A DNA stretch of 64,000 nucleotides from contig NC_091103.1 of the NCBI RefSeq assembly GCF_024713975.1, forward strand, positions 1,471,001 to 1,535,000, written 5' to 3'. The position numbers and the translations under genes are program-made. Below, piece by piece: positions 7,518 through 51,659 of this stretch (within the stretch, counting starts at the first letter, position 1; the number at the start of each line of letters is the position of its first letter). Source of the stretch: Paralichthys olivaceus (taxonomy: Eukaryota > Chordata > Actinopteri > Pleuronectiformes > Paralichthyidae). The notes under the pieces were generated by a model that saw only the letters and a list, made by a program, of their open reading frames with translations, searched no databases and was not told the DNA's origin.

Positions 7518-10500
7518 ATGGCGACGTCTAATTTGATAAAGGTGAGAGCAGCTCCGTGTTCGTCGTTCCTCTTGTTTGTGGGCAGATTGACGGAGTTCTG
7601 TTCCTCGCGCTGACCCAGGGTCAGTGCCGGGGACCGGGTCTGTTCTGTGACGGACACACTTTCATCATGATCGTGTCAGAATGTGGAACTAAAGCTCACA
7701 TCGCTGCGGCTCAAGTCACACTTGTCCCCGTGTGTCGTGGTTGAGCTCCGGTGATTTTTCCCCCCGCGGACCTGAACGGAACCGCTGCTCGAACCGAACC
7801 GGCACCATCCGCTGTTCCTCCATCCGAACCCGGGAACAACCCTGCTCGGCCCCCTCTGCCACGGAGAACCGCTGCCGAGCATGAGGCGTTTCAAGCCGCC
7901 GATCGAACCCCGGAGACGCCGCTACGAGGGGGGACTTCACCCCGGAACCAGACACCGGTTCTCCCGTCAGAACCACCAGGAGACCCCCCTTGTTGTTATT
8001 GAAGCAGCCGGGCTGCCCTCACCCCTCACCCGGCTCCTGCTGCTGTCAGGGGGCGAGTGAGTGGAGCCACAACAGCCGGTGGATTAACTCTGATTACTCG
8101 GGTGTTGATGTCGAGACATTAGATTCTCTGTGTCGGTGATTCGATCACAGACTCGTTGAGACTCGTGAGGATTTAAATTCGCTCTGTTTGAAATTAAGAG
8201 ACGATAACGGGACAGAGCCGAGAGACGTGTTCATGTTCCCGGGATGGGATCGAACATGTGATATAACAAATAACCGTGATCCAAGTGTGCTCAGTAACGA
8301 TCTATAAATATATATATCGTGTGATCTCAGTGAACACATTTGATCTGACTCAGATTTGTTGTGTTGTTGTTTGTCAGGAAGAAGCTTCACTCTGGAGCTG
8401 TGACTTTTATCTCCATGATTATCGATGATTCACTGATATGAAGGTTTTTATCTCGATGACATCTTCGACCACATCGTCCAGCTCTTTGGATTAATGTGAT
8501 GGTAGAGAGTCAGAGGATCGGCAGGAAGCAGAGATACCTTAAGTTCAGGTCAAGCATCACGAGAGACGACTGGTCGGGGTTCAGGATCAAGTGAGGTTGA
8601 GGTTGAGATAAGCAGATGTCAGTCAGGACATAAGAAACTACTGGACAGATAATCATGAAACCTGGTGACGGCAGTTGTTTTGGATCCAGGAATCTTTTCT
8701 CACTGACTTTAATATTGTGAGATTGGACGTTTTGAAACTTTAGTTCATGGATCTGAATGAAAGAACATCAGACATGTGAAGGGCACGGGTTTCTATCAGT
8801 GTGTGAAATTTGCTGCAGATTGATTGAACATAAGACTGTTGGGCCGTGGGACGGAGTGATGGACGGAGTGATGGACAGAGTGATGGACAGAGTGATGGAC
8901 AGTGTGATGGACGGAGTGATGGACGGAGTGATGGACAGTGTGATGGACAGTGTGATGGACAGTGTGATGGACGGAGTGATGGACAGTGTGATGGATGGAG
9001 TGATGGCCGGAGTGATGGACAGAGTGATGGACGGAGTGATGGACGGAGTGATGGACAGAGTGATGGACAGTGTGATGGACGGAGTGATGGACGGCGTGAT
9101 GGACGGAGTGATGGATGGAGTGATGGACAGTGTGATGGATGGAGTGATGGACAGAGTGATGGACAGAGTGATGGATGAGTGATGGACAGAGTGATGGACA
9201 GAGTGATGGACAGTGTGATGGATGGAGTGATGGACAGAGTGATGGACAGAGTGATGGATGAGTGATGGACGGAGTGATGGACAGAGTGATGGACGGAGTG
9301 ATGGACAGAGTGATGGACAGTGTGATGGACAGAGTGATGGACAGTGTGATGGACAGAGTGATGGACGGAGTGATGGACAGTGTGATGGACGGAGTGATGG
9401 ACGGAGTGATGGACAGAGTGATGGACGAGTGATGGACAGAGTGATGGACGGAGTGATGGACGGAGTGATGGATGGAGTGATGGACAGTGTGATGGACGGA
9501 GTGATGGACGGAGTGATGGACGGAGTGATGGACAGAGTGATGGACAGAGTGATGGATGAGTGATGGACAGTGTGATGGATGGAGTGATGGTCAGAGTGAT
9601 GGACAGAGTGATGGATGAGTGATGGACAGAGTGATGGACAGTGTGATGGATGGAGTGATGGACAGAGTGATGGACAGAGTGATGGATGAGTGATGGACAG
9701 AGTGATGGACAGTGTGATGGATGGAGTGATGGACAGAGTGATGGACAGAGTGATGGATGAGTGATGGACAGAGTGATGGACAGAGTGATGGACAGAGTGA
9801 TGGACGGAGTGATGGACAGTGTGATGGACGGAGTGATGGACAGAGTGATGGACAGTGTGATGGACAGAGTGATGGACAGTGTGATGGATGGAGTGATGGA
9901 CGGAGTGATGGACGGAGTGATGGACAGAGTGATGGACGAGTGATGGACAGAGTGATGGACGGAGTGATGGACGGAGTGATGGACGGAGTGATGGACGGAG
10001 TGATGGACAGAGTGATGGACGGAGTGATGGACAGAGTGATGGACGAGTGATGGACAGTGTGATGGACAGAGTGATGAACGGAGTGATGGCCGGAGTGATG
10101 GACAGAGTGATGGACGGAGTGATGGACGGAGTGATGGACGGAGTGATGGACAGAGTGATGGACGGAGTGATGGACGGAGTGATGGACAGAGTGATGGACG
10201 GAGTGATGGACGAGTGATGGACGCCACTACTTTGTGTTTTAGTTTTCTCTATAAGTAACAGCTGTGCTAATAGTTGTGGTGTTTCCAGGTTTCCTGAATT
10301 AAAGAAGTTATAAAAAGCTTTTCATTGACAGTAACATTTGAAATTCGAATGAACCTTCTGGATCCCAGCCCTTTCTTTTTTTAACTGTGTGTCTTCTCTT
10401 TCTTTCTTTCTCCCATCACCTCTCCTCTCATTGCTGTTCATCCGTGTTTCTCCAACCCACCCACACCACCTCTCTCCTCCAGAACAAGGGGTCCCTGCAG

Positions 10501-34667: not shown

Positions 34668-34962
34668 TTTAAGTAGTTGTTCACAGAGGATATCAAGACT
34701 AATGTTTGCAGACATGAAAAACGTATTTTATGCGATGATGAAGCATCAAATATTTGTTCTAGTAGTCTAAGTTCTATATATGTGTTTTCTTTTTAGTTAT
34801 GTAAAGTTTATAGTGAAACTAAAATTTCAAGTCTTGGTTCCATCTTTGATAACGACATCTTAAGAATCATTAACTCATTTATATCATTAAAGTGCTACTT
34901 CAGGTAATGGAGGACGATGCTTCATGCAGAGCTCTGATAAAGTGTGTGTGTGTTTCAGGGCG

Positions 34963-36107
34963 ATGGTGGTTCCGTACGAGGGCCAGTCTTTCTCTGCTCT
35001 GAGGAGGCAGTGCCAGCAGAATGGACGTCTGTTTGAAGACCCTCTGTTTCCTACGTCCGACCAGTCTCTGTTCTACCAGAGCAACAGCATCGGCCGAGTC
35101 ACCTGGAAGAGGCCGAAGGTGAGAGCAGAGAAACGGCTCAAAAAACAGGGAGCACAACATTTCTTTACATTCTCCACATTTTAAACACTTACCTGGAGTT
35201 TTAGGTATTTTTTGACAAACTCTGTGTTTATTCGACTAATCTGCAAAGTAGGAACAGTGTGAAGCCGAGAAAGTGAGAACTCGTCCAGTGAAGTTGGTGA
35301 TTTTCACATCAGAGATGGAGGCACAGCTTCAGATCAGCTGATTTAAAGAGGAGACGGAGGAGGAGACAGGAAGCAGTGTGTGGTTGAAGCGGAGACAAAG
35401 GGAGCATGTATCCACAGGGAGGGGGGGGCACAAGGACTGGATAGAGAAGAATCTGTGGAATTTATCTCCCAGAAGTCAATTGTGCGCATGTGTTTGCTCT
35501 TTAAAGAAATATTTGAGCTAATATTTAAAAGACAGAATACACGTGTGTCCCTCTCAGCTTCTATTGTTTCATACTGAAGTGATTCTCACGTCTGTGGTTG
35601 AACCAGGACAACGAGGACGACAGGACTGAAATCGCTTCAAACGCATGCGTCTAAACTTAAGTTGTAATTGAAACAAGATGTTGTGTAACTGCGCTTACGC
35701 TGCTCCTGCACCGTGTTTTAAATCTTCTCTCTCTGTGCTGAGGGCCTGGTCTCTGTCGTATTTACAAAACTAGGGCAAATATTTGGAGACAGGATTCAGT
35801 GGCGCTCATGTGCTGCGTTAGCATGTTGCCTGTGTCAGACTGATCTCTAACAGCTGTTCAACGTATATATATATATACATATAACGTATATATATATATA
35901 TACACGTCACGACATCTCAGCAACGACTTGTTTTGAATCGCAGACCGTTCAGATAAATACGGAGCTTGAGAAGAATTTAAAACATGAGAACCGTTTGGAA
36001 ATATGACAAGTTTCAGTTCCATACTTTTCTCATGGAACCAGATCAGCATCAAACATTTCATCAAGAAGAAAAAACACCTGAAGTGTGTGTGTGTGTGTAA
36101 ACACCTG

Positions 36108-36144
<37 letters not shown>

Positions 36145-36345
36145 CACCTGAAGTGTGTGTGTGTGTAAACACCTGAAGTGTGTGTGCAGACGTGACAGGT
36201 TGATTCGTGTCATGAATCATTTGAGTTTCTTTCAGTTGATGCTGTTTGTTTGAAACATGGTGGTTTAAACTGTCACAGTGTTTTTACTCAGTGCAGCGGT
36301 TGATGATGGAGAAATATGATGCTCTTAATATAATCACTCAATGAC

Positions 36346-36410
<65 letters not shown>

Positions 36411-38900
36411 TCTGTATTCCGACCTCTCTCAGTGACTCAGGCTGGATGTTACTGTTTCACCACTAATCGCTGTGTTTTGTGTATTAGGTGAGTTGCACTA
36501 TGACTCTGACATCATTAACTGCAGGTCAACAAAATAATTAGAGCGTCACGTTTCCCCACCTCCTCCGTCGACTTATCTTTCTGTCACATTCGGTCTGAAG
36601 TCTAATCAGCTCCCACCAACGTTAATGATCATCTACACGTCTGATCCAAAAACAAATTTACTTTCACGTTCATTAACTATTTGACTAATTGAAATAACAG
36701 CTTCTGTTCTGACGCACCTTTATTTTCACAAGCTACTTCGGCCAGATCCTGGAGATCAGAGCTATAAAGTTAAAACACGGTGAAACTGATGCAATGACTC
36801 TGAGAAGGTGGCGATAGAAACACAACATGTCCCTCACGTGTCTTTGTCTCCTGAGGCTGAAGTGACCCCAGTCTGCATTAGTCCTGACTCACAGTGAGTC
36901 AGTGATCCACGGACGTGTTAACACACAGTTGTAAAACATGGAGTCACTCCCTCTTCACCTCCACTCACAGAACAAATCAATACCATCATCGATCGGAGGG
37001 TTTTCAGTTTCCTGTTTAATTATTTAGCTGCTCAGATCAATGATTGACAGTAAAAGCACATTACAGTGTTTCGATACTGTTCAAATACTGAGTTCTGAGA
37101 GACGACTGGAAACTTGCTTTCACACTCACTTCCACCCCTAACGTCTACACCCTGACCACACCGACAGTTCGTGTTCACGCCAGTGGACATTAAACAAACC
37201 TTTTCCGTCCGGCTCCGTCGTACAAAGTCCCTGACAGGTTCCACTGAGCTGATGTGCAAACAGATAAAAGTCATAAACCGTCACAGTGCAAATACAAAGA
37301 CGACGTGAACGTGGCACTTTGTGATTTCACGATAGTTCTTAACTTTATTCTAAAATTCAGGCATGAAGTGGCTTTTGACCTTTTGTCATTAAAAAACGTA
37401 TTTCTCTTTTGTGTGTCTGTGCGTGTGCGGTTGTGTTGTTGGAGCTGCTGCAGGAGAACCACCCAGGCTGGACCTGTCATGTGTGTTGTGGTTGAACAGA
37501 CGAGCAGTGTGCGTGTACACTGTGCGTATAAATACATGTACGTGAAATGATGGCTTCTAATTTTCCGAAACACGACGTCCTCTCAGATCTGCTACCAGAC
37601 GTCCTGAGAACTGGATCTAAGATGAAGAGACGGAGTCTGTGTCTCTAAATCTGGAGCAGTTTTATTATTTCTGTTTCTGTCCACTTCAACTGAAACTTCT
37701 CCAAACTATCAATCCTGCTCCTTCGTATCCTAAAACAGTTTTAGAGAGTCTGACTGATTTAAAGCTTTGATGATATTATTAGTCGATATGAGCCTTTAAT
37801 GGAAATATATCAACAGTATCAGCATTTATGTTGGCTAACATGAAAACTTTTATTTTGAAGAATAAATGATTCAAAACCTTTTTTTAAATGTGTGTTTACA
37901 TTTTATCTAAAAATGTGTTTATTTCCTTAATTCAAGTTCCGTGTCGGCATCAGCCTCCAAACATTCACATCGCTCCGACTCTGACTTCTGTTGTACTTTC
38001 TGTTTTTATACTTTTCTTACTTGCTGTTAATGTGAAGAACATTATGAATAAAGCTTTACTTGTTAATATTCACTAATAATACTGAAATATTCATGTACAA
38101 TCGGTTGAATCATCGTGTTCAACGTCACTGAAACTTAAGGAAGGAGCAACGTGTAGATCAGAAGATTCATGACACGTGATATGAAGCTGTAGTTTATCTC
38201 AGCACAAAGGAAATACAGGTTCTGTCCATGTAACAATCTATAGATGACAAACAGCTTTATGTGTTATATATGTTATATTTGTACTGAGTTGTCTCAGACT
38301 GTCTCTGGGTGTGTCCCTGGTTTATCTCAGCTCTATCATTTGGCTGCCGTCCTGTTCGCTCTGTGGTTTGTTTCACTTTGAGCTTTCAGAGGAGTGTTCT
38401 TCTTAAGTGGAGAGTTTCGTCACCCAGTGTTTACCTTCTAATAGCTGATTGAGAATCTGCCTACGCCCTCACATTCATCATCCACACATGGCGGAGGCCC
38501 AGTGTGAGCGCAGCCTCCGACCGCATGTCGGCTCTAGTGCAGCAGCTGGAGGTCGACCACAGACATTACAAGAGAAGTTCACTTCACAGCACAAATCTAA
38601 AACGAATGATATCAACTCATCAGCTGGACCTGAGCAATAATTGATAGTTAATCATTCCTTTGTTATTGGAGAGTTATTTCCTGGTTTACAGATGTTTACA
38701 GATGTTTACAGATGTTTACAGATGCCTCTGTTCCTTCCACTGATTTTAAACATCTTTTCCTCTTAGGAGTTATGCAGCGACCCTCATCTGTTCGTGGACG
38801 GCATCAGCGCCCACGACCTGCACCAAGGTCAGCTGGGAAACTGCTGGTTCGTGGCCGCCTGCTCCAGCCTGGCTGTCAGGGACGCGCTGTGGCAGAAGGT

Positions 38901-38951
<51 letters not shown>

Positions 38952-41734
38952 GGTTCCATGTGTTGTCATTGCTTGGGTTGCAGCTGTTTGTTTGGGATCA
39001 GTGGATCCGTTTCATAAACTGTCAGACTTCAGTCACCGCAGGGTGAAGATGTGTCTCTATGTGAGCGTGTGTGTTAAACCTCCAACGTTCATACAGAACC
39101 TTCATCCAAAGTGCCTCAAAGTTTACAGCAGCTGAACTCACTCACTCACAGACAGGTGGCAGCACGAGGCCACGCTCATCTAGGTCTGACTGTCAGTGAG
39201 TAGCACAGGAGGACCTGGGGATCAAACCGTCAACCCTGTGATCCGTGTGTGGTGTGGTTCAGCCGGTAGAGCGGGCTGCTTGCGCTCAAACTCTGTGTGT
39301 GTGTGTGTGTGTTGATGGGTGTGGCCGTGTGTTGGTGCCAGATTTGTGTGTCTGGGTGTGTGTTTACTTCAGATTAGTGTGTAGTGTGACCATCTAAAGC
39401 AGCTGAATGAAGTCAGTCGAAGAATCCCAGGGTCTGTCTCCTGATCCTGATCCAAACTAGAACAGCAAAGAAAACTGAAGCTCGTCGCTGGAGGAACAGG
39501 AACCTGCAGTTCTACCTGTTTGGAATACTGGAAACACAAAATGACGTCTATCGTCCATTAGGTGGCGCCATTGACTTTGACATCACTGGTCTTCAGACAT
39601 GACACAGATTAACGTGTCAATGGATTTTCTGTCAGTTGGGATTAAATATTCACACGAGGACACAATAGAATACAAATATGTCTCCTCTGTCAACCTGCAG
39701 GTTCTTAAGATATTTGTCAGATCGGATGTTTCCTGTGTAGATTCAGTGTCGTTGTTTGATTCCAGACGGACTCCAGGACTTTTCCATCAGGCCTCTGTCG
39801 GGGTCTGACTCCCTGAAGATAATTCCTCATGATTCTCACTGTGCACATTTGTTTTTTACAGCTATCTTTGTGAGGACCAGTTTTAGCCTTTAACCTACTG
39901 AGTGAGGACGTTTAAGTCACTTTGTGTGTCCCCCTTTAATGGACTGTTTGGGGGTCAAGCTGTGGTTAGGTTAAGGGTGAGGCATTTAGTTTGGAGGGTT
40001 AGGGTAAGGGGGGGGGGGGACAATGAGTGTCCTCACTGAGACAGCTGTACAAACGTGTGTGTGTGTTTTCTCTCTTTCTTTCCACCTGGTTGCTTCATTC
40101 CTGCTCTGCGGTCTCGGAGGTCTTCTGCTGCAGCTCAGTTTTCCATCAGCTGAAGGAAACTCGAGTCTGTTTCTGGTGTCGCTGCCTCGGCGGAGCAGCC
40201 GGTTGTCTTGACACCATCAGCGGTTCAAACACAAACAGCGGTTCTGAAACTGAGCCTCTGAAGTGATGACGACAAACCACACAGGAAGTCTGAAGACAAT
40301 TAGCAAGGAAGTGGAAAAAAAACAGTTTTCTCTTTCTTTATTTTCCACCACATCAACACTGACTCCAGATCTGAGCGGACAACGCATCGTCATGAAACCC
40401 TGTGGTGTTTTGATTTTGAATCTATTTTAAAACTTGACTCCTCCTCCTCGTCCTCTGTCCAGTGACACAGATGATGATCCCCACCAATGAGAACACAGAC
40501 GGCTTTCAGTCGATATTTAATCGACGTCCCTCCATTGATCTCTCAGGCTGAAAGTCAACGTGAACATTTGATCTTTCCATTCACAGACAAGTTTTATTTC
40601 TACTTTAAACTCATCACACATGTTATTATTTCAGTAATCAGCTGATTAATAAAGGCATTCTTTATTTACAGGTTTTATTTTTATAGATGATCATTTAGTT
40701 TTCAAGATCATTTTATTATGACCCATAAAAATCTCTTAAATGTTCTTAATTGATAACGAGGCTTCAAAATCACCGTAGAATAATGTGAACAGAAGTGTTT
40801 CATGAATTCTCATGTTTCTATATGAATTTAAAATGTTTGAATATTGATGATTTATGATACATTGATCATCAACTAGCACCAAGAACCGTGCGAAGAGAAC
40901 TAGTTCCATATGAAGTTGAAGCAAAGTGCAGTCATACTTTTAATTTTCCTCTCACATTGGTTTATCCAGGATGATTGATGTTTTGGAAAAAGTATTTTAC
41001 GTTGCTCTGAAACTTGCCGTGAATGTACAAAACTCAAAGAGCTGGAGGGAGAATATTTAAGAAGAAGATTTTTACTCTCTGCTGCTCTAGTGTGTTTCTC
41101 TTTAAGGTCAAACAAGCTACAGGTTTGTTCCGGTAAAAAGTGAAAAGTCATTTTTCTGCTGTGAACTCCACCGAGCAGCTGAGGTTCGCTGCCTCTGCTC
41201 CGTCCTTGAAAGCAAACAGGAAGTACATGACCTTCCTGACCTTGGCCAGCTCAGCGATCCTCTCGCCAAACTCCTGCATGTCCGCTTCCAGGCATTTGAG
41301 CGCCGAGTCCTCGGGGTCGTCAGCGTTACGCCAGAACGTTCCGATGGGCTCTAGTAGCTGCCGGGTCATCAGGTGGGTGAGGTCAGGGGTCCAGTGCTGG
41401 GAAATACCAGTGATGGTGACACGGCCGTGGCCAGAGAGGGAGAAATTCCAGCGGGAGAAGTTCAGCCCCTGGATGAGGAAGTCCAGACGATACACGGCTT
41501 CGTGGGGAAGAAGCAGACGCTCGCCGTCCTGACGTTTTTGACCCGAGCGCTGCAACGACGACACGCGAAGACGCATCATCTGGAACAAAGGAAGGAGGAG
41601 AGAGAACAGAGGCCCCTCGTGATTCTGAGAGAAACATGGTGGAGTCAGTCGAAGATCTCAGTCTGAGAAACACACGACTTTCGTCAACAAAGATGATTCT
41701 GAAGAGAAACTTCTGCAGCTCACGACTACAAACC

Positions 41735-41791
<57 letters not shown>

Positions 41792-42945
41792 GCACAGCTG
41801 TTCTCATGACTTCCATTCATTGTGCACGGTCTAACCAAAGCCTGATATCTGACCATGACCAACTAAAGCCGAACCGTAACCTGATCCTAACCACGACTCG
41901 TGTTAACTCAAACCTGAACCACAGCACCCCCTACAGGTGTAGGCCATAAAACACAAGCACCAGATTTCACACAGTCGAGCATCAGAACCTAAAAAGTCCA
42001 GATTTCTTATTGTCTGGTAAAAACGCCCCAATGTTTAAGAAAATGAAAATAATTTCTCCAAACCTTAACCTGTCCACACAGAGGTGGTGGTGGTGTGCAC
42101 TGGTTGTTACTATGAAAAATAGTTTTCACCATGTTTCTCATCATGTCAGCTCACTGGGAAGCTCGGGCTCAAAGTTCTTCCTCTTCCTTTTCATTTTCTT
42201 TGGAGTCACTCATCAGTACATGTATGAATGTAGCTGTGAACCAAACTTCTCTGCATGGACAAGGTGCAAATTTACACTTGCTCACAGTCAGAGAAGCTGT
42301 GGAGCTGTGGAGCTGTCACGTCACTCTGAGAAACCAGAAAGAACAACAGGAAACTGTTCTCTGATCATTTAATATCTAACAATATAACTGGTCAATAGAT
42401 CTATTGATTGTTACACTGCAGCGACATTGAAATCACCAGGAGCACTTTAAGAACACACGTCGTGAAGAATGTGATGAACCAGAAAGAGACAAGTTTAAAT
42501 AAATCAAGACATTCCTATAAAAACAGCTGAAGTTCCTGAAAAGCATCCGTCTGCAGAAAGTGAACTTTGAAAACTACAAACAAAACAAATGATGTTTATC
42601 GTCTGTCGTGTTTAAAACTGAAAGTAATTAATATGTGATATATTTAAATATATCCATGTTGAACATTTCATCAACTGTCAGAACTGACGTCTATAATCAG
42701 GTCCAGTCTTTGTACATGCAGTTGTATTTAATCACACACACACTCAGCTGAAGACGAGCAGTCATGTCAGTCTCACCTCGGTCAGAGCAGAGTCTTCTTT
42801 AAACGTCAGCACCATGGTGTCAGAGGGAGTCTCAGCCTGGTCCATGTCTGACTCGGAGGTTCTGATCCCGGGTTGTGTCGAGGGCAGCGCTGCCTGTCTG
42901 GACGGATCCTGTAATGATGAAGCTTTGCAAGAGTTTCTGATTTCA

Positions 42946-43005
<60 letters not shown>

Positions 43006-46000
43006 CCCCTCTCTCTCCCTCTCTCCCTCTCTCTCTCTCTCTCCAACTCTTTCCATCACAGTTGGGCAGTGCCTCACTGTTGCCCCCCCCCACCTCCCCT
43101 CTTCCTGCCCCAGGGTAGTTTGGGTCGGCCGCATTGATTGGCATGCCTCACAACATGAGAGAGATCGATGAGAAAACAGGATCAGTCAGATCAGTTAGTC
43201 GTATTTTTGTGTTCTGTTCTTTGTGCCCCCCCCCCGTCCTCTAAATCACACAAACACACACACACTTCTTCAAAAGTGACATTTAATGTGCATTTAATTT
43301 GTACCGCCATGAAACCAGCTCCAGTATTTATATACTTTGAATTATTATCTGAGGTGTAAACTATGGAACAGGTTTGAAACGTCTGAATATCAAATGAAAA
43401 TACTCTCAGCCTTTTTCAGGTGGGTGATGTGTGAGGGTGCTTAGCAACAGATCGCACTGATGACGAACAAGAGGGAACTCTGGGAGTTTCCTGAGGGCTT
43501 CTGGGAGCTCGACTGGTCTTGGCTCAATGGATCATTTATTTATTTATATCATTCACTGACGTGTGTGTGTGTGTGTGTGTGTGTGTCACACAGGATGTGG
43601 GTGGTTGGCGTTCCCTTGTTAAAAACTTTGGAAATCTTTAGTTAATTACAGATGCTGGAGGTTAATTAAGTGGAAAACATGATGTATTTCAGATCTTGAA
43701 GAACAAATGGAAGCTGTGGGATGCTTCTTTATTTAGTAGATTATATATTTATAGTTTAGATTTTTGCATTTGGTAAATTGAAGTCTGTTTTGTAGAAACT
43801 GGATATTAGTTGTTCAACAGTTTCCTGTTTCTATAGCACTTATCTAAACAAAGTGCTTTACAAAACACATGGGAATCAAACAACACAGAACAAAGCAGAA
43901 AGAGATGGATAACATAAAACAGAGCGACCGCTGGTTCGAGTCCTCCGCTCTGATGACTATGATCACATGTCCACGTTGTTTCTCTCAGGTGATCCCGGAC
44001 TGGAAGGACCAGGAGTGGGATAAAGAGAAACCGGAGTCGTATGCCGGGATCTTCCACTTCCACTTCTGGCGGTTTGGTGAGTGGGTGGATGTGGTGATCG
44101 ACGACCAGCTGCCCACGGTGAACGGAGAGCTGGTGTACTGTCACTCCAACGACAGCAACGAGTTCTGGAGCGCGCTGGTGGAGAAGGCCTACGCCAAGTA
44201 AGCAAGTCCAGCATGTCCCTGTCGTCTCCCTGTCGTCTTTATTGGGATAAGAATTAAAGTCCTAATATCTTAGTTTTTCAACTGAATTGAATTCAAAATG
44301 CTGTGTTGCACCTAGATTATTTTATTATTATATTAGTTTTACACTTTCAGCTTCCATCTGCCTTGATGCTGCACGTAGAAGAATTTTAAGCTTGATTTGA
44401 GGCTTCTTGAACAAATGGACGAAGTCAAATCTGATTCTCCCACAAAGACTTTATGTCCATTTGAATCCAGATGCAGGAAAGAATCCGCCTGACACAATAA
44501 AACTCTGCAGCATCTGATTGAAACCACGAATGATTGTTTGTGTTTCCCAGAATGTGTGGATGTTATGAAGCTCTGGATGGGGGCAACACAGCCGATGCTC
44601 TCGTGGATTTCACCGGCGGCGTGTCAGAGCCACACGACTTAATAGAGAACGGATACAAAGATGATGAAGACAAACGCAACGAGCTGTTCGAGAGAGTCCT
44701 GAAGGTCCACAACAGAGGAGGCCTCATCAGCTGCTCGATCCGGGTGAGGAGACGTCAAACACCCAGCTCCGGCTCAGTGAGTAAATCACTCAGCTTCATT
44801 CTCACTGAACCGGAGCCGATGTGTCGTTCCAGGCAACCAGTGCGGCGGACATGGAGGCCAGGCTGGACTGCGGCCTGGTGAAGGGTCACGCTTACGCAGT
44901 GACAGACGTCCGCAGGGTGAGGCTGGGTCACGGCTTTCTGGCCTATTTCAGGTCAGACAAACTCACCATGATCCGCATGAGGAACCCGTGGGGACAGAGA
45001 GAGTGGAACGGGCCCTGGAGCGACAGGTGAGGAAGAGGAGCGACAGGAGCAGGAGATGAAGGAGCAGAGTCGATAAATGTTGGTGTCAGACTTTTTACTG
45101 TGGAGATGCAAAGGTCACGTTTGAGATCATTGAGATGCTCAGGTTCACATTCAGAGCTGAGATATTAACAGGTTTGACCTGTTATTTGACTGAAAAGAGA
45201 TTTTCTCTGCACAAATTGTAGGAATCAGGATTTTTAAATCTGTAACATTTGTACTTCCTGATCACTTGTCTTCAGAATTTAAAGTTAAATGTCCTTTTTT
45301 TCCTCTTCTGCGTTTGGCGTGTGTCTGCAGCTCTGAAGAGTGGAAGAAGGTCAGTAAGAGCGAGCGGGAGAGGATCGGCGTCACCGTGCAGGATGATGGC
45401 GAGTTCTGGTGAGGTTTAGAGCAACGCTGCCCTCTGTTGGCAAATCAAAGGTGCCTGCATGTGGCACTCGGTGACGCTGCACCTGAAATGAATTAACATG
45501 TTCTTCTACTTGTTTGTTTCTCGTTCCTCCTCTTCCTCTCATCATAAATATCACTGAGTCAAATTTCTCTGATCCTAACCAGAATTTTCCTTCTCTCCAT
45601 TTCTGCAGGATGACGTTTGATGATTTCATCACCAACTTCACAGACCTCATCCTCTGTCGTCTCATCAACACGTCCTACCTGAGTTTCCACAAGACCTGGG
45701 AGGAAGCTGTGATGAGGGGCTCCTGGCGTCGCCACGACGACCCCCTTCTCAACCGAGCGGGGGGTTGCTCCAACAACAAGCACTCCTTCCTCCAAAACCC
45801 ACAGGTATTTTGTTCCTCCAAACATTTGTTATTGTTGCTGAATGACGGAGTGAACTCTGATAACGTGTGTGTGTGTGTCTGTGCTCCGTGTTGTAGTACG
45901 TGTTCGACGTGGAGAAGCCAGAGGACGAGGTTCTGATCTGTCTGCAGCAGAAAGATCGCAGAGCCAGACTGAGGGAGGGACAAGGAGAAAACCTGGCCAT

Positions 46001-46024
46001 TGGTTTCGACATACACAGAGTGAG

Positions 46025-46083
<59 letters not shown>

Positions 46084-47832
46084 TGTGTGAGAGTGAGTCA
46101 AATTAGGGTCAAATAGTTTTTAGAAAAAAATGTTTAGAAAAACAATAATTGACCTCAAATATGAAAATAATGATAAATTGATAAAATTTTAAATAATATT
46201 CCAGAATTGAATAGAAAAAACTTTTCTTACACTGTTATATTTAAAAGCAAAAGTTAAACTTTCATATTCAAATGATAGTTTCTCTCTGTAGTTTGCCTCT
46301 CAGAAGTCTGACGTATGAATATTGTCTCTGTGTGCAGGTGGAGTTAAACAGGACGTACCGTATGCACATCACCCAGCAGAAGGTTGGTGGGAGTGTCTAC
46401 ATCAACTCAAGGTCTGTGTTCCTACGCATCGACCTGACAGAGGGACGCTACGTCATCATACCCACAACCTTTGACCCCGGCCTGGAGGGAGACTACCTGC
46501 TCCGCGTCTTCACCGATGTGTCCTCAGACTGCAAGTAGGACCTCGCTGCTTTGTGTTTGTTCCTCTGCAGCATGATTGAGTCTTTAGATGACAAACGAAT
46601 AATGTTATCAAGGCCTCCTCCAACCTGAGCTTTACACCACAGTTAAACCAACAACATAGACACTAGGACATCATCTGTCTCTCTGTCTCTCTGTCTCTGC
46701 TGCAGGGAGTTGACTCAGCATGAGCCTCCACAGACCTGCTGGTCCGGGTTGTGTGGTTATCCCTCTCTGGTCACTCAGGTCCACGTGCTACAGGCGAACG
46801 GACTCGCAGGACAAGACTCTGGTGGAGGTAGATCTAACTTCATTCTTGCTTTTTCCAGGAATCGTCAACATGGACTCAGAGACACGAAGGAATATTCACC
46901 TCCACGCGGAGGTTATGTCCTCGGCTGAGTCTGTTTGTGTGTTAATCAGCAGGATTAAAGAAAAATGACTGGACAGATGTGATGTGGGTCAAGAAAAGAA
47001 CCCTTTAGATTTTGGTGTGGATCCAGATCAGGGGGCTGATTCAAGAATTTAGTTTTTATTACTTCAACAGTGTGAGGATGTTTTTCAATATTTTCACGTC
47101 AATGAATTCACGGATCTTGATGAAAAAGATCAGGCAGGATTCAGGGACTGAAAGTCATGAGTGTGTTTGAAATTTGTCCCAGAACCAAACAAAAATGTGG
47201 ATCTAGTGAATTCAAATTAAAGGACTGTTGTGCTTCAGTGGAGGAACCTTCACCATTGTTGTCTCTCTCTCTCCAGTGTCAGACCCCTATGTGATCATTC
47301 GCTGTGAAGGACAGAAAGTTCGCTCTCCGGTCCATAAGGACACACGCAGTCCCGTCTTCAACACCAAGGGGCTGTTCTACAGGAAGAAAGCCCACCAGCC
47401 AATCAGCATCGAGGTTCGTGTGCATGTGTTTGATTGTGTGAGTGTTTGATTGTGTGTTTGTGTGAGTGTTTGATTGTGTGTTTGATTGTGTGTTTGTGTG
47501 AGTGTTTGATTGTGTGTTTGATTGTGTGTTTGTGTGAGTGTTTGATTGTGTGTTTGATTGTGTGTTTGTGTGAGTGTTTGATTGTGTGTTTGATTGTGTG
47601 TTTGTGTGAGTGTTTGACATGAAGCTTTCACTCCCTCTCTCTCCGCCTCTCTCAGATCTACAACCACAACGCGCTGAAGGACTCGTTCCTGGGTCAGGTG
47701 ACGCTGCCGACGGATCAGGGTGATTTACAGCAGACGCTCCACCTGAGGGACAAGGGCAATCGCCGTGACAACGACCTCCCTGGTACCCTCACTGTTGCCA
47801 TAGTGACCAGCACGGTGCTCACCAACATCTGA
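34963..47832 (+). CDS. capn5: Calpain-5, complete, 12 coding exons, 637 aa
   Basis: Exons: 34963-35118, 38767-38898, 43989-44197, 44551-44743, 44833-45026, 45331-45408, 45609-45804, 45897-46019, 46338-46534, 46706-46827, 47277-47413, 47656-47832; 1914 nt, all GT..AG and in phase. The start exon begins at acceptor 34958 and the ATG gives [16 protein letters not shown]. The peptidase core has catalytic C78 (GQLGNCWF), H249 (KGHAYAVT) and N281 (MRNPWG), each three residues lower than human C81/H252/N284. The CBSW (domain III) region contains [17 protein letters not shown] and [17 protein letters not shown]2-like domain ends the protein ([36 protein letters not shown]). Calpain-5 is an atypical calpain without penta-EF hands, a Ca2+-regulated cysteine protease expressed in retina and nervous tissue in mammals. 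Intron 2 hosts omp on the opposite strand. Human CAPN5 is 640 aa. The teleost duplicate (a/b) is undetermined. Confidence 0.96.
35119..38766 (+). other. capn5 intron 1 (after the start exon)
   Basis: This is a 3.6-kb intron without any exon-like ORF. It contains a block of (GT)n separated by TAAACACCTGAAGTG units (36060-36187), a CA tract (36350-36406) and an AT palindrome (ATATATAT, 35866-35900). Short GATGTTTACA tandem copies (38690-38722) lie near the acceptor. Confidence 0.7.
36060..36187. repeat. Compound repeat TAAACACCTGAAGTG + (GT)n
   Basis: Four copies of AAACACCTGAAGTGTGTGTG are separated by GT tracts of different length. This is a hybrid of minisatellite and microsatellite. Confidence 0.9.
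38902..38949. repeat. CA microsatellite at the start of the omp-hosting capn5 intron
   Basis: A 48-bp CA tract begins three bases after the donor of the exon carrying the catalytic cysteine (gtgac, 38899). Confidence 0.95.
39240..39300 (+). mobile_element. Possible tRNA-derived SINE fragment
   Basis: GTGTGGTTCAGCCGGTAGAG resembles an A-box-bearing tRNA-SINE head, similar to the fuller copy at 62376. No B box or cloverleaf is present, and a TG tract follows. Confidence 0.3.
39850..40022 (+). repeat. Possible dispersed repeat remnant
   Basis: TTTGTGAGGACCAGTTTTAG, GAGTGAGGACGTTTAAGTC and GGTTAGGTTAAGGGTGAGG resemble an abundant fish repeat whose copies carry tGTGAGGACC and GGTTAGGG blocks. 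It lies in capn5 intron 2. Confidence 0.35.
41148..42845 (-). CDS. omp: Olfactory marker protein, two exons, 166 aa, nested in capn5 intron 2
   Basis: Minus-strand exons are 42845-42777 (23 codons, [20 protein letters not shown] then LTE, donor GAG|GTGAGA) and 41579-41148 (acceptor TTCCAG|ATGATG, phase 0). The joined protein aligns along its length with vertebrate [43 protein letters not shown], the hallmark [43 protein letters not shown]-like [20 protein letters not shown], and FTAEK. Human OMP is 163 aa. OMP is a small cytoplasmic beta-sandwich protein of mature olfactory neurons that buffers cAMP signalling. It lies antisense inside the 5.1-kb capn5 intron between 38898 and 43989. Mammalian OMP is known as an intronless gene, so the 1.2-kb intron here is notable. 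Starting at the internal ATGATG of exon 2 would lose the conserved N-terminal strand. Confidence 0.9.
41733..41788. repeat. CA microsatellite in the omp intron
   Basis: A 56-bp CA tract (GT on the omp sense strand) lies about 150 bp upstream of the omp exon 2 acceptor. Confidence 0.95.
42955..43042. repeat. CT (GA) microsatellite in the omp promoter region
   Basis: (CT)n with C-run interruptions lies 110-200 bp upstream of the omp start codon on its strand, where it reads as a GA-rich tract. It probably sits in the 5' UTR or core promoter of omp. Confidence 0.9.
43830..43905 (+). repeat. Dispersed repeat fragment, copy 2
   Basis: CTATAGCACTTATCTAAAC and AAAGTGCTTTACAAAAC match the 21105 copy with several changes. 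It lies 80 bp upstream of the capn5 exon 3 acceptor. Confidence 0.4.
46026..46081. repeat. GT microsatellite at the start of capn5 intron 8
   Basis: 56 bp of GT start six bases after the donor (gtgagct, 46020). Confidence 0.95.
46889..47243 (+). repeat. Dispersed fish repeat, copy 2 of 3
   Basis: This is the longest copy. It holds TTCACCTCCACGCGGAGG, TTGGTGTGGATCCAGATCAG, TTCACGGATCTTGATGAAAA, GTGTGTTTGAAATTTG, GTGGATCTAGTGAATTC and GGACTGTTGTGCTTCAGTGG. The other copies share these in order. It occupies most of capn5 intron 10. Confidence 0.65.
47414..47613. repeat. 36-bp minisatellite filling the start of capn5 intron 11
   Basis: Copies of TGTGAGTGTTTGATTGTG + TGTTTGATTGTGTGTTTG repeat about five times directly after the exon 11 donor (gttcgt, 47414). 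The array and the next acceptor (47655) together make up the whole 242-bp intron. Confidence 0.95.
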
Positions 47833-49550
47833 GACAGTTCTGCCAAACTGATGCAGCTGATTCAGAAACTTTAACAACAGTGTACAACATCTTGAGATAA
47901 CAAGATCCTACGTTTTGAAAGATTTTTACTTAACGACACATCCAGGAGGAGAACTGTGACAAACACATGTCACCTTTTGTTTTAGCTTCATGCCTATAAA
48001 TGTGTGTTTACATCATTATTATCAGCTCCTGTTGTGGCTGAACGTCCATACCAAATATAGTCGTCATTCCAGAAACGTCACGCAGCAGCTCCACAACAGA
48101 CGACGTCTGGCTGTGTCGCTGATCTGCTGAGCGTGGCCCAGGTCTGATCTTAATATCCTGAATTTAAAGTTTATAAACATCGTTTACACGTTTCTTCTGA
48201 TTGGATATCATCTTATCTTCTTCAGCAGCTACTGAGTGGAATTTTTATTCTACTGTTTAATCTGTTTGAGCTTTCTTATCTTTTATTTTAGTTTACACTA
48301 TCATTCATATATTTGTCTTTTATATTGACAGAAGCTTTACAAGTGGACTTGTCTAGTAGCATAGCACCATGTGCCATCACCGAAATCTTCCATTGTGGCA
48401 TTAGTTTGATTCAATGCACTCAGTTTGCAGTTTAATAGCATCCAGCTTAACCTAATGCAGTGTAATACATAATGTACAATATGTTAGTTAACTGCTTCAG
48501 ATAGATGTCGATTTAACCCAGTGGTTATTCTGGAGGCTGCAGTTTGTGATGCAGAGGTGTTTGTGTCATACGGTCCACCCTCACTGTTATAAATGGGCAA
48601 AATAATAGGAACAGCTGTCAGAGAGTTTTTAGGTTTACTCATCTTCAGACTAAAAACCTTTAGTACCTTTGACGGTGTTATGTGGACACTGAAATCATAT
48701 TTTAAACAGGTTAATCCATCCATCATTATCTAGGTTATGTTTAATGATTAACTCATGATAGAGTGTAGAGCTGAAAAAGAGTGAAATGTGATAATGTCAA
48801 TAAATTCATGCTCTTGGTAAATAATTCATATCGTTCATACTGGCTTTCACTATTATCTTTCATACTATAACAGCTATCATGGTTTAAACATGTTTTACAT
48901 TTAGTTAAATTTGGTATTAAAATGTTGAAGTGTCTGAAATTCAAATGTCTGAAACTCAAATGTATAAACTCTGCTAAAATATCTAGTATCAATTTTGTCA
49001 TTTCTAAAAAAGAAAAGTAAAGTAAATATTGTGAGTTCAGTTCTACTTCCTGTCTGAAACCAAAATACAGCAGGGGCAGCAAATCTAACATACAGAACAT
49101 ACATGCAGTGTTGTGCCAGTTCACACAAGAACTAGTTCAAAGTTCACAGTGGTTGTTTTTGATAGTAAAGGTTGACGACCCCTGACCTACAGTCTTTTTC
49201 ATATGTCCCCACAATGTGCACAAGTCAAGAATGCTCACACACGCCTTGTGTTTCCTTTGATGTTCCTTTAATGAACGAACGCGTTGTTCTGTGACATGAG
49301 ACTAAAATATAAAACAAGTGTAGAATTCTAACATTCAAATACATTTAAAAATAAATAAATGTAGAAATTCAACTTTACATGTCATGTAAAGTAAAAATAA
49401 CCTTTTTCATCACTAAATTAATTAATTTTTTCATTTTTTATGTATTTAATTTATTCCTGCATTTATTTATTACTTGTGTTAGTTTTTTCTCCCTCATAGC
49501 TACGGAATGCATTAAGCCAATGAATATCCTCACTTAGATAGAAGTACAGG

Positions 49551-49591
<41 letters not shown>

Positions 49592-49790
49592 CCTTTAATG
49601 AAGGGAACGTGTTGCTCTCACAAGACTTTGATATAAAACAATAGTATAGAATTGTAGAACTTCAAAGGGCCGAGTAGGGAGACAAGAAAAGGAAATACAG
49701 TGAAACACTTTGATGTTTGCTGCGTCCGGTTTCGTGGTCATTATTTCATTCTGCCTTCGTTCATTCATTCATTGGGAAACACTGTGATCT
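47833..49790. other. capn5 3' UTR and spacer before the intronless ORF
   Basis: No coding exon is seen. An AATAAA at 48799-48804 (GTCAATAAATTC) could end capn5 with a UTR of about 970 nt, but the assignment is uncertain. The rest is AT-rich, with a GT tract at 49555-49590 and TTCATTCATTCATTC just before the ORF. Confidence 0.45.
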
Positions 49791-49813
49791 TCCAGTGTAT
49801 GGGTTAATCTGCA

Positions 49814-50812
49814 ATGGCAAATTGTCCCCCCCCAAAAATGAACAAAAGTAACCTCCACCAAACACAGAGCGGCAAACAAGAGGATTCCAGTATCTTGAAA
49901 CAGAAACAGCTTATCAAGAAAATAGAGGCTCTCAAGACTGAGACCCAGATTTTACAGCAAGAGGTGAAAACTGGCAAAACGAGGCAGCAAGTGCTCCTGG
50001 AAACTGTTCGACGTAGCCAGAGAGTGATAGCAAATCTTATCCTGGACAAATGTGCCAGCGAGTTCAAGGCAGAAAAACTGAGCGCCATTGTGACGAATCT
50101 CAAACAGCAGTTAGCTGAGTTTGAGAGAAAAGCGAATAAAGAGAAACAAGAGTTAATTTTAGCCTCAAAAGCAAAATTCCACGAGAGGTTGGCTAAGCAA
50201 GCTAAGAAAGCATGTAGCGTACTGAATGAGCAGGCGAAAAAACATACGATCGAGATTTCAATGATGAAGAAAAAGCTTGAGTCGCAAAAGAGAAAAATGA
50301 TAGAGAAAGTAAAAGACATGCGGGAAAAAGAAAAAAAACGGGAAATGAAAAGGAAACTAAAAGAGGCCGATAGAAAACTCAAGTCGCAAAACGTCCAGGA
50401 TGCAGCAAATAAACTGTCATCGGCAGTGACGCTGAAAAAGATATGGTCCACATCAACGGACGCTGATAGAGATAAAGCATCAAGTACAGAACAACTGCTG
50501 CAAGAACCGGCACTGAACGTCAAACCAATGGATCAGGAGGTGAAAAAAATAAAGGGAATACTGAAGAAACCTCGCACTGTGAACGACAGCCACTCAGAGA
50601 GACGGAAGAACAAAGACCCTGAGAGGACTCCAGAAGAGCAGGAGAAATTAAAATCCACACTGAGCAACGTGGAAGCAAGAGATGTTGACCAAGTGGCCAA
50701 AAATAAGATTGTTACTCGGAAGAAAGGAGTTTCTTTCAATGACGAAATCAAGGTTTTCAGATACCTGCTGAAGAAACCGAACAAGTCGAAGTCTAAACGA
50801 GCAAGACAATGA
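49814..50812 (+). CDS. Intronless coiled-coil protein with PP1-docking motifs, 332 aa, uncharacterised
   Basis: One uninterrupted frame opens at ATG 49814 (G at -3, G at +4) and stops at 50812. Composition is Lys/Glu/Gln-rich and helical. A predicted coiled coil spans roughly residues 28-200 (for example IKKIEALKTETQILQQEV, SMMKKKLESQKRKMIEK). Short docking motifs stand out: SILK at 26-29, GILK at 248-251 (IKGILKKPRTVNDSH), and KGVSF at 304-308 within RKKGVSFNDEIKVF. These fit the SILK consensus [GS]IL[RK] and the RVxF consensus for protein phosphatase 1. The spacing and the IKVF tail resemble the N-terminal PP1 site of the kinetochore protein KNL1. No globular domain is recognised and no name can be given. 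It lies between capn5 and myo7a on the same strand. Lack of introns plus an A-rich tract after it suggest a retrogene. Coding is supported by length; function is inference. Confidence 0.7.
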   Translation: MANCPPPKMNKSNLHQTQSGKQEDSSILKQKQLIKKIEALKTETQILQQEVKTGKTRQQVLLETVRRSQRVIANLILDKCASEFKAEKLSAIVTNLKQQLAEFERKANKEKQELILASKAKFHERLAKQAKKACSVLNEQAKKHTIEISMMKKKLESQKRKMIEKVKDMREKEKKREMKRKLKEADRKLKSQNVQDAANKLSSAVTLKKIWSTSTDADRDKASSTEQLLQEPALNVKPMDQEVKKIKGILKKPRTVNDSHSERRKNKDPERTPEEQEKLKSTLSNVEARDVDQVAKNKIVTRKKGVSFNDEIKVFRYLLKKPNKSKSKRARQ

Positions 50813-51067: not shown

Positions 51068-51096
51068 ATTAAAAAAAACAAAAAAACAAAAAGAGG
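51068..51096 (+). terminator. ATTAAA signal and A-rich tract after the intronless ORF
   Basis: ATTAAA at 51068-51073 runs into an A-rich stretch (AAAAACAAAAAAACAAAAAG). It may be a polyadenylation signal, the fossil poly-A tail of a retroposed copy, or both. Confidence 0.4.
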
Positions 51097-51187: not shown

Positions 51188-51414
51188 GCGTCAGCTCTCA
51201 CCTTCACGGAGTACGGTTGCTTCCGCATCATCCTGATGTGCAACAGTGCTCATCTATCATCTCCATAACATTCATAATATGTACTATAAATAATCATAGT
51301 GTGCAGTATTTAAAAAACATAATTATATTCTTATGCTGTTATAGGAAATATCTGGATGCAGTTTTGAGTTGTTTAAAGCAATTGATTCATCTTGCAATTA
51401 ACTCGTGAAATTGT

Positions 51415-51417
<3 letters not shown>

Positions 51418-51459
<42 letters not shown>

Positions 51460-51489
51460 TGATTACAACCTCCCCTGTGCTGTGTCTCA

Positions 51490-51520
<31 letters not shown>
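51418..51520. repeat. GT tract and 30-base poly-C run upstream of the candidate myo7a exon 1
   Basis: (GT)n at 51418-51458 is followed by 30 uninterrupted C at 51491-51520, about 140 bp before the purine-rich leader exon. The complementary strand could form a G-quadruplex. Confidence 0.9.
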
Positions 51521-51522
<2 letters not shown>

Positions 51523-51659
51523 TCTCTGTGTAACAGGGTTCAGTGGCAGCAGTGAATGAGCAGCTTGCTGTGTCACTGTTAATACCAACAAGAAAGAGGG
51601 AGGGATGAGCGGAGGAGGAGGAGGGAGTTATTCACTGCTTAAAACTCTGTATACCTTCA

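Follow-up and report, generated by a model that had tools for sequence, protein, structure and literature searches.

The specificity of PP1 comes from its many docking partners. Between capn5 and myo7a of Paralichthys olivaceus lies an uninterrupted frame with motifs of the types found in such partners, which raises the question of whether the frame is a gene and whether its product could target PP1. The window analysed here is a stretch of 64,000 nucleotides of this fish, and all window coordinates are positions within it. The explanation that we put first, tentatively and at somewhat less than an even chance, is a real, unnamed, single-copy fish gene whose basic coiled-coil protein works as a PP1-targeting subunit. 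The frame is probably a real unnamed gene; the PP1-targeting role of its protein is plausible from the sequence.

The reading frame and its neighbourhood

The features of the frame, its flanks and the rest of the window are as follows.

49814..50812, + strand: uninterrupted frame of 332 codons, from Met to TGA (translation)
49632..49638, + strand: TATAAAA, a possible TATA box by pattern only, about 180 bases 5' of the ATG
51068..51073, + strand: ATTAAA, a possible polyadenylation signal by pattern only, about 255 bases 3' of the stop and leading into an A-rich stretch
41151-41657, - strand: uninterrupted olfactory marker protein (omp) frame (Pfam PF06554, E 2.8e-61)
70-2112, + strand: FAM222A-family frame of 680 codons (PF15258, E 3.3e-234)

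Translation reproduced the intronless frame described in an earlier sequence-only reading, 332 codons followed by a stop; the word "intronless" applies to the coding frame, and the 5' untranslated part could contain an intron. The start context, gcaATGg, is favourable, and the third codon upstream of the ATG at 49814 is an in-frame TAA.

The codon-position asymmetry of the frame is 55.3, beyond every one of 1000 simulated sequences that were purged of stops and matched in dinucleotides (mean 11.0, maximum 35.9); by thirds, which have no null of their own, it is 24.1, 24.8, and 16.6. Stop-free runs reached at most 246 codons when the whole window was simulated 40 times with an order-2 model, and up to 368 codons when 40 sequences of 64 kb were simulated with the A-rich dinucleotide composition of the ORF itself, so the length of the ORF alone is weaker evidence than it looks. 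Codon-position asymmetry is better coding evidence than ORF length.

The 368-codon runs can be cited in favour of a chance or decaying open frame that makes no protein, as can the synonymous codon choice: measured against capn5 and myo7a usage (a training set of 506 codons), the frame scores -0.228, further from that usage than uniform choice, which scores zero. However, back-translation with the local background gives an even lower value (-0.459, sd 0.043), none of 5000 simulated single 332-codon stretches was stop-free, and the asymmetry exceeded every simulation. The chance opening of a 332-codon frame is unlikely, and we regard this explanation as a whole as exceedingly improbable.

The neighbouring genes were located by tblastn, with human CAPN5 and MYO7A fragments as queries. 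The exons of capn5 span 34960 to 47829 on the + strand, with a TGA stop at 47830-47832, and coding exons of myo7a were found from 61925 onward, also on the + strand, which bears out the earlier placement of the frame between these two genes. Their shared orientation with the frame would suit a frame that is a single large coding exon within a longer gene or an alternatively spliced one, or that belongs to a transcript running towards myo7a, as would a weak acceptor-like cttccag that ends 18 bases 5' of the ATG at 49814. The upstream in-frame stop, the frame's own stop, the favourable start context, and the possible TATA and polyadenylation signals instead fit a complete short gene, and we consider a larger exon highly unlikely.

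The omp frame is antisense and lies between the capn5 exons at 38770-38901 and 43872-44207. According to an excerpt of PMC13378369, these genes occur in teleosts in two sets, and ompa contains an intron in all teleosts examined. The uninterrupted omp frame found here therefore suggests that the locus belongs to the ompb/capn5b/myo7ab set of the teleost-duplicated block. The same excerpt lists cul5, dcun1d5 (printed as dcan1d5), capn5, myo7a, and gdpd4 (printed as gapd4) as neighbours of omp; the window holds a cullin-binding frame upstream of the 332-codon frame, which by its position is presumably dcun1d5-like. The excerpted omp-synteny literature (PMC13378369, PMC4640105) names no gene between capn5 and myo7a; fish gene catalogues may carry the frame as an uncharacterised locus.

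Directly 5' of the frame is a diverged local duplication (49185-49480 and 49500-49812), which might contain a promoter; TGTTCCTTTAATGAA and ATATAAAACAA are common to both halves, at spacings of 327 and 324 bases. A scan for bacterial promoters, which has no bearing on a fish gene, found nothing. Used as a DNA query, the downstream flank matched itself and gave two short further matches, both inside query bases 276-374. At 51400-51530 a long TG repeat is followed by a run of about 30 C, which may be prone to assembly errors, and the purine-rich stretch after it might be the untranslated first exon of myo7a. Elsewhere in the window, four overlapping long frames of 502, 517, 264, and 211 codons at 8740-10321 on the - strand might reflect a tandem repeat; the 517-codon frame has a sub-threshold Pfam match only.

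The predicted protein and its candidate PP1 docks

Within the 332-codon frame, we distinguished the following regions and motifs.

49880..50449, + strand: residues 23-212, a long helical basic region and putative coiled coil (AlphaFold2, charge count, heptad count)
49889..49900, + strand: SILK, residues 26-29, within a predicted helix and probably no dock (pattern search, model)
50555..50566, + strand: GILK, residues 248-251, followed by KPR, a candidate PP1 SILK-type dock (pattern search)
50723..50758, + strand: residues 304-315, KGVSFNDEIKVF, a candidate RVxF dock with the following hydrophobic residues, KNL1-like (pattern search, KNL1 comparison)
50771..50809, + strand: residues 320-332, KKPNKSKSKRARQ, a basic C-terminus and candidate nuclear localisation signal (translation)

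The 332-residue protein has a computed pI of 10.1. AlphaFold2 run without an alignment predicts helices at residues 23-52, 57-83, and 86-212, with block pLDDT above 90 for residues 101-200, and residues 23-212 contain 50 K/R against 25 D/E. The long basic coiled coil proposed earlier thus agrees with the predicted basic helical region, which fits a coiled coil; the heptad evidence is a simple count without a control. Over the whole single-sequence model the mean pLDDT is 72.8 and the pTM 0.29, and confidence is mostly low after about residue 210.

No Pfam family scored above its cut-off against the frame (best E 1.7), and a sequence search of the PDB gave no relative (best E 0.21, or 0.17 for the tail alone); these matches are weak and chance-like. 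A scan of viral contigs returned four pattern matches and no relative of the frame.

A pattern search placed [GS]IL[RK] at residues 26 and 248 and [RK]x(0,1)[VI]xF at 304, exactly where the sequence-only reading had put its motifs, with the SILK-type GILK (248-251) N-terminal to KGVSF (304-308), itself followed by NDEIKVF. Among protein shuffles, a single SILK match occurred in 3% and a single RVxF match in 24%, and a lone SILK or RVxF therefore means little. Combinations were far rarer in 200,000 shuffles: at least two SILK matches in 0.04%, a SILK with an RVxF 5-80 residues after it in 0.15%, and KNL1-like strings in none.

The first SILK had been offered as a PP1-docking motif. Residues 26-29 fall inside the first helix of the predicted long helical region, and for that reason we rejected this motif as a probable dock. 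GILK is at the end of a low-confidence predicted helix (241-249), in blocks with pLDDT of 54 and 45, and residues 254-267 are below 50. A helix is also predicted at 308-319, over NDEIKVF, with block pLDDT of 66 and 74 in the single-sequence model, so this part is not clearly disordered; NDEIKVF would need to be extended when bound, and the predicted helix counts against a simple disordered dock. The residue before V306 is Gly, with the basic residue one position further away, an arrangement that the RVxF consensus permits and that is not optimal. Serine at x is canonical, since the excerpted text of PMC10066265 gives S or T at this position in more than 50% of RVxF regulators. The linker between the candidate docks comprises 52 residues, of which 14 are basic and 10 acidic, a small charge excess.

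These observations bear on a competing explanation, in which the frame is a real lysine-rich coiled-coil gene (structural, axonemal, chromatin or cytoskeletal) and its PP1 motifs are incidental. The frequency of lone motifs in shuffles is what this explanation would expect, and one of the two SILK matches is in a predicted helix, where docking as an extended peptide should fail. The rarity of the ordered SILK-RVxF pair counts against it.

Likeness to KNL1 and to other PP1 regulators

The human KNL1 dock used as reference (64 residues) agrees with PDB chain 8ppr_K at 64/64 residues; PDB chain 6czo_B aligned with it over 59 residues, with mismatches at position 24 and at the first aligned residue. 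Compared without gaps, KGVSFNDEIKVFR of the frame and RRVSFADTIKVFQ of human KNL1 score 37, a value reached by 0/20,000 and 0/300,000 protein shuffles in a comparison that is post hoc, its reference having come from the earlier reader. With gaps, the ORF scores 41 against the 64-residue dock, which 223 of 2000 shuffles equalled or beat. The suggestion that the frame mirrors the PP1 dock of KNL1 is thus partly supported: the RVSF-IKVF segment and the order of the motifs speak for it, whereas the whole dock is matched no better than by shuffles and the fish's own knl1 lacks IKVF. For incidental motifs the two scores point in opposite directions, the gapped comparison being not significant and the extended match being unattained by any shuffle; we see that explanation as a serious contender that is nonetheless rather doubtful.

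Like human KNL1, the frame has a SILK-type motif followed by VSF-xxx-IKVF, with a phosphorylatable Ser at x, and 8 of the 11 residues of the human RVSFADTIKVF are identical. In contrast, the dock is C-terminal in the frame and N-terminal in KNL1, GILK takes the place of SILK, and the start-to-start spacing of the motifs is about 56 residues as against 33. Neither an RWD domain (Pfam, no match above cut-off) nor MELT-like repeats (pattern search of the 332 residues) were found in the frame, and outside the dock we saw no likeness to KNL1. By sequence, the resemblance appears confined to short motifs only.

The fish's knl1 lies apart from the frame, on contig 19, where Knl1_RWD_C scores 38.6 bits with its neighbours against a cut-off of 27.8, and it has MELT-like repeats; a second Knl1_RWD_C match, below cut-off, is elsewhere on contig 11. 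At about 16958000-16958330 of contig 19 the dock sequence of this gene is RRVSFAPANDVLLF, in which the IKVF of human KNL1 is missing. From three frames read beside splice-like signals we obtained the stretches ILKAPRKSARFPDPEQQENV and VERAKPVEKRNSRRVSFAPANDVLLFSK, and the ILKAPR and RRVSF stretches appear to be in separate exons with an intron between them. Aligned with the dock of the frame, the fish knl1 13-mer gets a score of 8; the highest score that it attains at any position of the frame is 11, under the shuffle mean of 12.3. Descent from the fish knl1 was rejected on the different tail and the chance-level score; the dock is therefore KNL1-like, and its derivation from KNL1 is unsupported. 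Judged by these sequences, a common grammar of short motifs is a more probable source of the resemblance to human KNL1 than is descent from the local knl1.

The same results weigh on a further explanation, that knl1 or some other known gene gave rise to a derived copy (a retrogene or a fragment) which came to lie beside capn5. The uninterrupted frame, the ATTAAA and A-rich stretch 3' of the stop, and the likeness to the human KNL1 dock are what such a copy might leave. But the dock of the fish knl1, apparently split between exons and with a different tail, scores like chance, the likeness ends outside the dock, and no obvious target-site duplication is present in the repeat list. Moreover, when the assembly that contains the window (588,085,608 bases, 25 contigs) was searched in six frames, there was one match, the frame itself, both at E<=0.001 and at E<=10 (12 candidates scored). 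No second copy, paralogue or parent was thus found at E<=10 in the 588-Mb genome, a search that distant parents split into exons can escape. We consider a derived copy quite unlikely.

Among other PP1 regulators (for PP1 docks and KNL1, see also PMC5005033), the docks of spinophilin, Ki-67, RepoMan, and NIPP1 were rejected as counterparts, their 13-mers scoring no better than chance. Inhibitor-2 contains KGILK, and neither Inhibitor-2 nor Inhibitor-3 is known to have a long coiled coil. A pattern search of the frame found no CCC motif of Inhibitor-3. What the frame has in common with Inhibitor-2 (PPP1R2) and Inhibitor-3 (PPP1R11) is that a single protein combines motifs of the SILK and RVxF types, as described for both in an excerpt of PMC10066265. 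With RIF1 it shares a SILK and RVxF pair near the C-terminus. However, RIF1 of multicellular species has the RVxF before the SILK, as well as HEAT repeats (PMC3410773, in excerpt), while in the frame the SILK-type motif comes first and no Pfam domain was found.

The duplicate interval and a possible mode of action

A search of the genome with capn5 exons gave four places: the window, two places on contig 15 and one on contig 22. At 2.30 Mb of contig 15 the end of a capn5 gene is followed, 12,291 bases further on, by myo7a exons; this place is the duplicate capn5-myo7a locus. Compared with this interval by tblastn, the frame gave five matches at E<=10, the best with E 2.1, and nothing similar to it. 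The longest stop-to-stop frame there is 160 codons, and K+E+Q make up at most 19% of its ten longest frames, against 36% of the 332-codon frame. In about 20 kb after the other capn5 place on contig 15, at 13.46 Mb, no myo7a exon was clearly recognisable (best E 0.26), and the best match to the frame had E 0.56. It follows that either the duplicate lost the gene or the gene is younger than the duplication, unless the copy in the duplicate interval diverged beyond recognition. A lineage restriction of the gene is compatible with its absence there.

On the preferred reading, that of a PP1-targeting protein, the frame would be expressed and residues 23-212 would form a long coiled coil that probably self-associates, perhaps as a dimer. 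Most likely, this coiled coil would position the protein and the tail would recruit PP1 via two pockets. GILK (248-251) would fill the SILK pocket of a PP1 catalytic subunit, KGVSF-NDEIKVF (304-315) would fill the RVxF and following hydrophobic grooves of the same subunit, and the 52-residue linker would cross the PP1 surface between the two docks. The basic tail would direct the protein either into the nucleus or towards an acidic partner; we infer that its location is probably nuclear.

By analogy with the action of Aurora B on KNL1, Ser307, at x, could be a kinase switch that turns PP1 binding off; its KKGVS context is not an ideal Aurora B site. In KNL1, phosphorylation of the SILK and RVSF motifs by Aurora B inhibits PP1 binding, according to an excerpt of PMC6715587.

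A more specific version, which we think improbable, is that the gene is restricted to a lineage and that, after the teleost genome duplication, it arose or survived only at this omp/capn5/myo7a copy. In it, a KNL1-type dock would have evolved independently on a nuclear coiled coil and made a new PP1 holoenzyme, maybe acting at chromosomes or the spindle and perhaps in germ cells. If this is true, the docking motifs would be convergent, with a human-KNL1-like dock in a fish whose own KNL1 tail differs.
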